NCBI GenBank assembly: GCA_026419775.2
Contig: JAOPGA020001460.1
Location: forward strand, 1-56,969
Source: Acrasis kona
Taxonomy: Eukaryota; Heterolobosea; Eutetramitea; Acrasida; Acrasidae
Direction of reading: 5' to 3'
Length of the DNA: 56,969 bases
A model generated the notes under the pieces. The model saw nothing but the letters and a program-made list of their open reading frames with translations, did not search any database and was not told the origin of the DNA. Positions 2,533-56,969 of this stretch are shown here, one piece after another; position 1 is the stretch's first letter; every line of letters starts with the position of its first letter. Both the position numbers and the translations under genes were made by a program.

Positions 2533-2614
2533 TGTCGTTCACGAGAATCGAACTCGTGTCTCAGGTGCCACAAACCTATATTCTACCAATGTTCAACTAT
2601 TAAACTAGAACGAC
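2533..2614 (-). tRNA. tRNA-His (GTG) with enlarged D-loop
   Basis: A cloverleaf fits on the minus strand. The 7-bp acceptor GTCGTTC/GAACGAC is fully paired. The D stem is GTTT/GAAT (2605-2602 with 2583-2580). The anticodon stem is TAGGT/ACCTG with loop TTGTGGC, giving anticodon GTG, and the T arm is ACGAG-TTCGATT-CTCGT. The discriminator A is at 2533 and a TTTT Pol III stop follows at 2530-2527. The D-loop is 18 nt (2601-2584) instead of the usual 8-9; about 10 nt are inserted just 5' of the conserved GG. The rest matches ordinary eukaryotic tRNA-His. It could be an active gene with a D-loop intron, an active gene tolerating a large loop, or a pseudogene; full stem pairing argues against the last. 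Confidence 0.85.
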
Positions 2615-27564: not shown

Positions 27565-28742
27565 ATGAAACTGTTGTGTGTGCTACTCCTTGTAGTAACA
27601 ATCACATATGCCGAACAACACAAGTACATTATCAAAACATTAACAAACAATGCGCTTGATAACATTTCGACTCAATTCAAATCAAACATGGTCATCAAAG
27701 GAGAATTCAATTTCGGTGAAAAATCAGGGATAATAGGATTCGTTGCAGTTATGGACGAGCAGACTGCCGCTGCGCTAGGAAAAGAAAATAACATCATCTC
27801 CATCACCAAATCACAAGAGTTACCACCCATACGCACCATAGACATACCCTACAAAAACAGTCTGGCGCGTGTAGTACAGAAAAATGTAACATATGGTCTC
27901 GACATGATTGATCGCGTCATGGATGGAAATTATGTTTTTAATGGAACAGGAGAAGGAGTAAACATTTTTATTGTCGATTCTGGAGTCAAAGATGACCATC
28001 CAGAATTCGAAGGTAGAGTGAAATGGGGATTTTCAATCTCTGACCATAAAGATACAACAGAGCACGGAACACACGTCGCAGGTTAGTTTTTACACATCTT
28101 CAATGTGTTGAATCAAACTTAGGGATTGCTGCATCAAAGACATTTGGTGTTGCCAAAAAGGCCACATTGATTTCGGTCAAGGTCATGAATGACGATCGTA
28201 AAGCATCAACCGCAGATGTTATTTTGGGACTAAACTACGTCTTATCGGAACACAAATCTAGTGGTAAGCCGAGCGTGGTTAACATGTCATTCGGTGGATC
28301 TCATTACGTTTTCGGTGTGTTGCAAGAGCCTATTATGGCACTTGTTGAGGCTGGAATTGCCTTTTCGACGTCGGCTGGAAATAATAGCGAAGATGCATGT
28401 TCGCATGCACCTGGTGGTCGCCTTAAGGGTGTGTTATGTGTTGCGGCTTCTGATAAAGACTATAATCTTTCCATGTTTAGTAACTTTGGAGAGTGTGTGA
28501 ATATTGTTGCACCTGGTGATGAAATCCTGTCAACTTGTGTCAACACGCCAACTTGTTACAAAACTGGAACATCAATGGCATCACCTGTTGTTGCGGGTGT
28601 ACTTGCACAAGCTTATTCAATGAGAAAATTTAAAAATGTTCAGGAGGCTTATGACTTTGTCCTCAAGAACTCTCAAACTGGTGTTTTAAAACATCTTATA
28701 AGACAAACACCAGATCTTTTAGTTTCAACACCAAAATATTAA
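27565..28742 (+). CDS. Secreted subtilisin-family serine protease (S8)
   Basis: Exons 27565-28081 and 28123-28742, 41-nt intron, phase 1; 378 residues. Proteinase K-like subtilase. Order of parts: signal peptide (LLCVLLLVVTITYA), I9-type propeptide (about 18-100, YIIKTLTNNALDN), then the catalytic domain. The triad is complete: Asp in IFIVDSGVKDDHP, His in EHGTHVAGIAAS (the splice lies inside this motif), Ser in GTSMASPVVAG. The oxyanion Asn is in STSAGNNS. Protein length is typical of proteinase K relatives (about 380). Likely digestive, acting in the food vacuole or outside the cell. No C-terminal extension. Confidence 0.92.
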
Positions 28743-54825: not shown

Positions 54826-54910
54826 GGGCGTGTAACTCAGTTGGTCATCAATGATATAGAGTGCTTGCTTAGCATGCAAGAAGTCTCCGGTTCAATTCCG
54901 GACTCGTCCA
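54826..54910 (+). tRNA. tRNA-Ala (AGC) with enlarged D-loop
   Basis: Cloverleaf: acceptor GGGCGTG/CTCGTCC with one T-T mismatch at pair 6-67 and the alanine identity pair G3:U70; D stem ACTC/GAGT (54835-54838 with 54859-54862); anticodon stem CTTGC/GCAAG with loop TTAGCAT, anticodon AGC; T arm TCCGG-TTCAATT-CCGGA; discriminator A at 54910; TTTT at 54912-54915. The D-loop is 20 nt (54839-54858) instead of 8-9. The extra bases (about TCATCAATGATA, 12 nt) follow the conserved GG and can form a tiny hairpin. Removing 12 nt would leave a standard D-loop. The identity elements and Pol III stop suggest a functional gene. Confidence 0.87.
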
Positions 54911-55684: not shown

Positions 55685-56969
55685 TTATTCATTAATAATC
55701 CATGATCTGAGGGAAATCAAGGTTTTCATTGTTTCCGCGTGAAGAGAAAACCTTCTATGACCAAGTACATCTCTTCCGCTACTGAAGCAGCGCTCTACAG
55801 AAACTGAGGCACAAGGTATGGCCAAATAATCGCGAGCAACGCGAGCCATGACTGGATATTCCGTCTGGTGATCTCTCCACCATTGGAGAATGTTGCATTC
55901 CTCTGGAAGATCGAGATAATTTGAGTCAAAATATCGATCAACGTCACTTGTTTTAAATGATGCTTTTTGTCTGTTTGCAAGCATTTTGCTAAGAAGTCCT
56001 TTTGGCTCTGTTGTATTCACAGCCTGATCAGATTCTTGTGGGTACATCTTCTTTAATTTGTTCTTTAAGTGTGACTTGATATCATTGACATCGTCTTCAT
56101 GACAGACTTGTTCAATTAAACTCATCTTGAATCTTGGGTCAAGGGAGGCTGCAATAAAATAGGTGTCATTCGCATCCATTCCATCATAGTACTTTTCAAT
56201 GTGAATACCCAACTTTCACAGCTGAAATAATTCTGTGATCAAAATCTTTGTACTCTTTTTCTTGATCTTTGATATCAGAAAGATGATCACACAATGCATA
56301 ATAAATTGGCAGGCTCATAGTAATCTGGGGATCATTTTTAGACACTATGCATGTAAATTCATCAAATTTTTCAAATACTTGTTTGATTTGTCTTAAATAT
56401 GACCACTCATCCTGTGACATTTCAAACACATCAAGGCTACACACACTGACATATTCGTTGTATTCATCAATAAGATCAAGAGCGTTGCAAATCATACGAT
56501 ATGTAGAGTTCCACCTGATTTTGATGTCATACTGGATGTGTTTAATAGATGTGTTGTGAATTTGACAAATTCTAGACCACTTGTCAAATCTCTGCGGACT
56601 ACGGTTACAGTGTATAGATACCGAACGGATCTTAAGAATGGGACTGATGTCGTAGTCACTTGGGTCATATTTCTCCTTCTTTGCAAGCGTATCGGCTTCC
56701 TCAATTGTTCCTGTATTTAGCTCCTTGAGTATGGTTTTGCACACAAGATTTAGAACATGGCCAAGGCATCGAATGAATGAATCAGCGTCCATCCTAGATT
56801 CTGGCAGCTTTTCTTTAATGCGACCAATCATGTTTTCATTGTTCATTGCATTATCACAAGTAACAGCCAATATTTTGTTCTTGCAGTCATAATTGGTGAG
56901 GCATTTACATACTTCATGCGCCATATTCTCTCCAGTATGAGCGCCGTTGAGTTTCACAAAATCCAATAT
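55685..56969 (-). pseudogene. hAT-family transposase, frameshifted and cut by the right edge
   Basis: The minus strand encodes a hAT transposase in two frames: from the window edge to about 56200 and from about 56212 to 55685. The first has NKILAVTCDNAMNNENMIGR (catalytic Asp region), the DIKIRWNSTY Arg-Trp motif and a helical core. The second holds ASLDPRFKMSLIEQ and the C-terminal dimerisation domain (ARDYLAIPCASVSVERCFSS, then LHAETMKTLISLRSWI). The frame shifts by one base near 56205-56212 (an extra G fits), so this copy is probably dead, unless repaired or supplied in trans. The N-terminal zinc finger lies beyond the window. Confidence 0.88.

Follow-up and report, generated by a model that had tools for sequence, protein, structure and literature searches.

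Both tRNA genes in the stretch of Acrasis kona DNA studied here (56,969 nucleotides of contig JAOPGA020001460.1, hereafter the window) carry an insert in the D-loop, and the question that they raise is whether such inserts belong to the mature tRNAs or are cut out of their precursors, and whether they are an accident of this locus or a property of the genome. An earlier note on this DNA had described an 18-nt D-loop in the tRNA-His gene, and direct reading together with Rfam confirmed it: tRNA-His(GTG) lies at 2533..2614 on the minus strand (82 nt; RF00005, 31.6 bits, barely above the cut-off of 29 bits), and its D-loop, AATAGTTGAACATTGGTA, has 18 nt if the D-stem is taken as GTTT/GAAT. The 10 extra bases that the note had placed before the GG do lie 5' of G18G19, but there are 11 of them when the gene is compared with the eight uninterrupted His copies in the genome, each 71 nt long and with an exon body identical to that of the window gene. 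The putative intron, between positions 15 and 16, is TAGTTGAACAT (2589..2599, minus) or the same stretch shifted by one base (2588-2598), which the comparison makes equally possible; this ambiguity is settled by the A at intron position -2 and the helix rule described below. The other gene, tRNA-Ala(AGC), occupies 54826..54910 on the plus strand (85 nt; RF00005, 51.6 bits), and here the insert was correctly said to follow the GG: it consists of 12 nt, CATCAATGATAT, 3' of GGT, and makes a putative intron at 54846..54857 (plus), between positions 20 and 21. Its junctions, with GGT on one side and AGAG on the other, were fixed as the ones shared by 12 distinct interrupted Ala-AGC D-loops among the junctions that each of them allows, and one uninterrupted Ala copy elsewhere in the genome (L058) has the exon body of the window gene. 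Neither gene was called when ARAGORN was run on the window in its bacterial setting.

In the 37.35 Mb assembly (1021 contigs), interruption of the D-loop is genome-wide yet isotype-specific. We read 91 interrupted genes on many contigs, belonging to seven amino-acid families (Ala, Lys, Asn, Ile-AAT, Arg-TCT, Ser-GCT and Ser-TGA, and His), and all 91 inserts are located in the D-loop. Duplicates, that is, loci identical in the D-loop and the 12 bases upstream, were counted once (30 fetched Lys loci became 29); a truncated Ala copy, L059, was left out, and an Arg copy with a deletion in its 3' half, L119, was kept, its D-arm being whole. Of 12 genomic places for His, 4 are interrupted and 8 uninterrupted; of 24 for Ala, 22 are interrupted, 1 is uninterrupted and 1 is truncated. 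Since 4 of 12 His and 22 of 23 full-length Ala genes are interrupted, the inserts are not chance. The pattern that the earlier note had named as speaking against it, with D-loops of 8-11 nt in most other tRNA genes and normal His and Ala copies elsewhere, holds by half: normal genes are present for both His and Ala, but interrupted ones greatly outnumber them in Ala (22 of 23 full-length), Arg-TCT (13 of 15) and Asn (10 of 11 read), and no other kind was seen in Lys and Ile-AAT. The note had also supposed a genome-wide feature of tRNA genes rather than a local accident. That it is no local accident stands; its extension to tRNA genes in general does not, for the copies read of Asp (8), Met (8), Trp (4), Gly (4), Arg-TCG (1), Thr-TGT (1) and Gln-TTG (two loci, 1 by flank) are all normal and uninterrupted. 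A family search, in which 63 of 2352 candidates were scored, listed 59 matches, and part of these were read; the set of genes read does not extend to Val, Pro, Leu, Phe, Tyr, Cys, Glu, initiator Met or further isoacceptors.

The remaining families differ in how completely they are affected. Lys genes occupy 40 genomic places: all 30 fetched are interrupted (29 distinct by flank), and the other 10 span 84-87 nt, which makes them interrupted by match length. All 20 places for Ile-AAT span 83 nt, and the 5 that were read are all interrupted. Asn accounts for 18 places among 41 matches, the remainder being Lys cross-matches and short pieces, and 10 of the 11 read are interrupted; the 15 Arg-TCT places, each of them read, comprise 13 interrupted and 2 uninterrupted genes. 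Six of the 7 Ser-GCT genes read, from 12 strong places, are interrupted, and four of the 5 others span 92-98 nt. Among the 8 Ser-TGA genes read (3 further places are weaker), 2 (L137 and L138) have D-loop inserts of 16-20 nt and 6 are free of them; the putative intron therefore varies among copies of one isoacceptor. No uninterrupted Lys or Ile-AAT copy was found among the 40 Lys and 20 Ile places, of which 30 and 5, respectively, were read and the others judged by span. A gapless pattern for the uninterrupted Lys/Asn/Ile D-arm, which substituted copies would escape, had one match in the genome, an Asn gene, and its reversed control had none. The Lys first-site pattern had no match in viral contigs. 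A vertebrate-type tRNA-Ile query matched nowhere in the genome in spite of the 20 Ile places, so that empty answers to foreign queries are uninformative here.

Several of these loci have features of their own. The truncated Ala copy (L059:1496-1640) retains an insert, GATTAAACAT, and the 3' half, joined to an unrelated 5' half, and the Arg-TCT copy L119, with a D-loop insert and several bases of the variable loop and T-stem missing, is probably dead. U2 spliceosomal RNA genes (L063:596-798 and L064:501-703) adjoin interrupted Ala-TGC genes, and a stretch of large-subunit rRNA (L079:1744-2309) shares a contig with a nearby Lys-TTT gene.

The interrupted genes combine near-invariant exon bodies with inserts of 64 unique sequences, 9-20 nt long. 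A single exon body serves all genes of each of Ala-AGC, Ala-TGC, Lys-TTT, Lys-CTT, Ile, His and Ser-GCT, while Asn has 2 and Arg-TCT 3; the 18 Ala-AGC genes have 13 different D-loops, the 18 Lys-CTT genes 10 and the 7 Ser-GCT genes 7. Junctions were determined by listing, for each gene, every junction that yields the uninterrupted sequence and intersecting these within a class, a procedure that makes no structural assumption and leaves a one-base ambiguity only in His, at the second site of Lys-TTT and in the single first-site Asn gene; for Lys, Ile, Ala-TGC and Ala-CGC, in which an uninterrupted copy was not seen, the mature D-loop is itself inferred. The sites so defined are 15/16, 17/18, 20/21 and, in Ser, behind the second T following GG. 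Lys-TTT and Asn use two of them: the insert lies at one site in 6 Lys-TTT genes and at the other in 5, and likewise in 1 and 9 Asn genes, and removal from either site, between CAG and TCGG or between CGGT and AGAG, restores the same mature D-loop. A run of four Ts begins within 25 nt downstream of 59 of the 61 interrupted genes that have 45 flanking bases (61 of 91; 39/39 and 20/22 in two sets) and of 12 of 12 uninterrupted genes of the same isotypes, against a background of 19%. The earlier note had not said what the inserts are; taken together, these properties of the genes point to introns and not to enlarged mature D-loops.

If the inserts are introns, their junctions may be marked in the precursor, and a single rule was found that relates them: the exon-1 bases -6 to -3 pair with the intron bases -6 to -3, each set ending two bases before its junction. 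In the window tRNA-His, the predicted helix joins GTTT, the 5' strand of the D-stem (positions 10-13; 2602..2605, minus), to GAAC (2591..2594, minus), which is followed by AT and the 3' junction; all four bases pair, and GAAC resembles GAAT, the 3' strand of the D-stem. In the window tRNA-Ala, GTTG (positions 15-18; 54840..54843, plus) is predicted to pair at all four bases, G-U included, with TGAT (54852..54855, plus), again followed by AT and the junction. Class by class, Ala-AGC and Ala-TGC pair GTTG with NRAY, Ser pairs GTGG with CCAY, Lys and one Asn pair GCTC with GAGN, His pairs GTTT with GAAC, Arg pairs TCAG with CTGA, and Asn, the Lys second site and Ile pair GTCG with, mostly, NGAA. 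One Ile insert (L130) has an unusual tail, ending in AAG and pairing as CGGA with GTCG. All 64 unique introns have A at position -2, whereas position -1 varies, with 49 T, 8 A, 5 C and 2 G.

The 64 unique introns make four pairs in 43 cases, three in 19 and two in 2, with a mean of 3.64 out of 4. This is the highest value among 30 registers, the runner-up (3.42) being the same helix one base outward; other 4-mers of the introns average 1.88 pairs, and shuffling the tails among introns gives a mean of 2.47 and reached the observed value in none of 10000 trials. The 57 introns from classes whose junctions are independent of the rule have a mean of 3.65. The real assignment of introns to exon classes is the best among 5040 permutations, with three of the seven intron columns tying with another exon: the GTCG-class introns pair equally well with the exon GTTG (2.87), and the GCTC- and AGTG-class columns also tie with the exon GTTT. 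The GTCG class (Asn and the Lys-TTT second site, Ile) is the weakest, with a mean of 2.87 over 15 unique introns, none of which makes four pairs, and its exon pairs better with the Ala introns (3.31). Predicted folding backs the helix to a similarly uneven degree. The mean pair probability is 0.93 for Lys-CTT, 0.87 for the first site of Lys-TTT, 0.82 for Ser-GCT, 0.75 for Arg and Ala-TGC and 0.61 for His; it is poor for Ala-AGC (0.44), the second site of Asn (0.41), Ile (0.37), Ser-TGA (0.31) and the second site of Lys-TTT (0.06), and the single Ala-CGC intron and the single first-site Asn intron showed no helix support.

The structure so predicted can be compared with the bulge-helix-bulge (BHB) motifs and their relaxed forms. 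A 4-bp helix between exon 1 and intron, at a fixed distance to both junctions, is present, more weakly in the GTCG class, and the junctions deduced from uninterrupted copies and class intersections fit a predicted cut between the second and third base past the helix. The strict hBHBh' form, with two 3-nt bulges and flanking helices, is not seen; an outer helix would need more bases than most of the introns have, and a hairpin loop holds the 5' junction. Since there is no second bulge or outer helix on the loop side, the motif would be the relaxed one, bulge-helix-loop (BHL), and not a strict BHB. None of the inserts is at the canonical location: with 91 of 91 in the D-loop, we rejected the reading of these elements as 37/38 introns. 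Spliceosomal introns were discarded as well, the inserts being 9-20 nt long and those listed not of the GT..AG type. An origin by target duplication was considered, and the inserts of Lys, first-site Asn and His do include a stretch almost identical to the D-stem's 3' strand; those of Arg (CTGA) and Ser (CCAT), however, do not repeat exon 2, and target duplication therefore fails to explain the pairing rule.

We regard it as highly probable that these nuclear tRNA genes are interrupted in the D-loop by very short introns, which an endonuclease and a ligase would remove. In the precursor, the four exon-1 bases would pair with the four intron bases, giving the bulge-helix-loop, and both cuts would fall after the second base past the helix; the tRNA splicing endonuclease, of which a Sen34-like domain is encoded, would cut at the two junctions, after which the exons would be sealed, probably by the ligase RtcB, to give an ordinary tRNA. 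The genes form two groups. In one (Ala, Ser, Ile, most Asn and some Lys-TTT), the intron lies 3' of G18G19 and the helix would form around positions 15-19, so that the D-stem could form alongside it. In the second group (Lys-CTT, the other Lys-TTT, His, Arg-TCT and one Asn), the intron lies 5' of G18G19 and the helix would use the D-stem bases 10-13 (12-15 in Arg), so that the intron would imitate or displace the D-stem until excised. The inserts, their distribution, the pairing rule and the protein domains are direct observations; excision, joining and the identity of the enzymes are what we infer from them.

The genome encodes candidates for both enzymes of such a process. The tRNA endonuclease domain (PF01974) occurs at two genomic places, and the one that was read is Sen34-like: its best match is an archaeal enzyme, Sen34 is the only eukaryotic subunit that it matches, and when it is aligned with Sen34 (chain 6z9u) it keeps the Tyr, His and Lys columns, which we take to be the catalytic ones. 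RtcB (PF01139) has one match at C620 (E 5e-119) and another, split in two, on C179. The predicted geometry is, moreover, that of known endonuclease substrates, moved into the D-loop. A structure of the ARMAN-2 enzyme is described with the scissile bond 5' of the third bulged base (PMC12397907), and human pre-tRNA-Arg is described with a 4-bp helix between anticodon and intron followed by a three-base bulge, the opposite side being a flexible loop (PMC10539383).

What this reading has against it concerns the mature domain. Human TSEN is described as reading the D-arm, elbow and acceptor stem (PMC10539383), and an intron in the D-loop would disturb the contacts to the first two of these; the puzzle is that the introns proposed here would sit within the very domain that the eukaryotic endonuclease reads. 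It is eased by the statement, in the same paper on human TSEN, that a bulge-helix-loop mimic of the anticodon domain can be cut (PMC10539383). The same difficulty gives what force it has to the idea that the inserts are removed not by the tRNA splicing endonuclease but by some different cleavage-ligation system, as eukaryotic enzymes are said, in a review (PMC6379350) and in the human work (PMC10539383), to depend on the mature domain when the intron is of the BHL type, and one review has the yeast enzyme cutting at 37/38 only. A 4-bp helix with a 2-nt offset on both strands is nevertheless described as the signature of this endonuclease family, whose domain the genome encodes, and we give such another system very little credit. 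Pseudogenes or tRNA-derived repeats come to mind since the review that discusses insertions in the D- and T-arms of eukaryotic tRNA genes deems them mostly pseudogenes, with nucleomorphs and Cyanidioschyzon merolae as exceptions (PMC4090602), and since a truncated Ala copy and an Arg copy with a deleted stretch do occur. The near-invariant exon bodies, the T-runs downstream of 59 of 61 genes and the failure to find any intact alternative among the 40 Lys places (30 read) and the 20 Ile-AAT places (5 read), the others being judged by span, make this account of the interrupted genes as a whole barely credible.

Natural D-loops vary by a few bases in length near G18G19, which is where the inserts are, and they might accordingly be retained in mature tRNAs with D-loops of about 17-29 nt. 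Retention leaves much unaccounted for: the inserts are unconstrained in sequence and length save at the 3' end, while the exon bodies hardly vary; two sites in Lys-TTT and Asn give back one sequence; the pairing rule is locked to both junctions, which would be pointless if nothing were cut; and the helix would take up G15-G19 or the bases of the D-stem. We consider retention unlikely, and excision as introns the better account. Somewhat less firmly, we favour a joint reading of the whole, in which the D-loop would be the main tRNA intron site of this heterolobosean nucleus, the tRNAs for Lys and Ile-AAT and most of those for Ala, Asn and Arg-TCT would be made only via excision, and one group of introns would work through strand exchange, standing in for the D-stem's 3' strand up to the moment of excision. 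If it is true, an endonuclease would be needed that reads the local bulge-helix-loop, in the archaeal style, more than the tRNA body.

Genes of this type are easily overlooked. With introns allowed, ARAGORN recovered all 46 uninterrupted genes but only 14 of the 82 interrupted ones in a set of 128 genes from our own finder; the latter has 82 interrupted genes and not 91, having missed the Ile and Ser-TGA copies with inserts, L119 and L139. In a set of 20 loci, the interrupted Lys-CTT genes at 6 (L090, L091, L094, L095, L096 and L097, around 1501-1586) go unrecognised as tRNAs by Rfam at its curated cut-off, and standard annotation would therefore miss them. Comparable interrupted tRNAs may sit unannotated in other protist genomes. 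The window has other features, which we noted by eye: two open frames on the minus strand (55685-56966) resemble pieces of a hAT-type transposase, and two on the plus strand (27565-28742) resemble one subtilisin-type protease gene whose halves are separated by a few bases that may be a spliceosomal intron. Protein comparisons suggest that the assembly is heterolobosean. Its GatB protein has Naegleria lovaniensis (49%) and Willaertia magna (48%) as its nearest named relatives among the best 120 of 8000 matches, where two metagenome proteins reach 61%; bacterial GatB proteins, at about 47-48%, come as close, which leaves GatB by itself with little weight. A six-TM protein of the window has only four database matches, one from Acrasis kona (47%) and three others, of which the best reaches 76%.

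Introns in the D-arm as such are already known, from Cyanidioschyzon, a nucleomorph and archaea; it is the extent, the use of two sites and the mimicry of the D-stem that look new for the introns proposed here. Nuclear tRNA introns off the anticodon loop are deemed rare in eukaryotes and are best known from a red alga and nucleomorphs (PMC4090602, PMC3978253). A literature search for D-loop introns in Heterolobosea gave no paper among the matches listed, although others may exist; in the Acrasis kona genome paper, tRNA is mentioned only in synthetases (2 occurrences), and the passage on the 924 tRNA genes surveyed in Naegleria gruberi does not mention introns (PMC2888827). In a heterolobosean, which belongs to a distant branch, such introns seem to be the usual condition of entire tRNA families, and dozens of natural variants already define the motif, which makes endonuclease recognition inside the tRNA body directly testable.

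The canonical 37/38 introns, as described for human pre-tRNA-Arg, share with those proposed here the 4-bp helix between exon 1 and intron, the 3-nt bulge on the 3' side and the flexible loop (PMC10539383), whereas the A. kona site is in the D-loop, within the body that human TSEN contacts. Archaeal introns (BHB, hBH and HBh') are alike in their 4-bp helix, 3-nt bulges and many sites, and one of the A. kona positions, 20/21, is also listed for archaea; the archaeal positions named do not include 15/16 or 17/18, and A. kona differs further in being a eukaryote with multicopy families and a 5' junction in a hairpin loop. With a range of 11-129 nt given for archaea, the introns proposed for A. kona are at the short end and hardly outside it. 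The nucleomorph of Guillardia theta likewise has insertions of only 3-24 nt away from the canonical position, in 9 tRNA genes and with excision reported as confirmed by RT-PCR (PMC4090602). Its genome, however, is that of a reduced endosymbiont, and many of its introns are described as being without a defined BHB (PMC3978253), whereas one pairing rule covers nearly all of those in A. kona. In the nuclear tRNAs of C. merolae, introns outside 37/38, the D-arm included, are reported with BHB motifs and RT-PCR intermediates (PMC9602550, PMC4090602), and both organisms would therefore have introns off 37/38 in a eukaryotic nucleus. The D-arm intron quoted for C. merolae, however, lies at 12/13, has the hBHBh' form and belongs to a gene with three introns, whereas those of A. 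kona would be single introns of 9-20 nt with a relaxed motif, filling most copies of several multicopy families.
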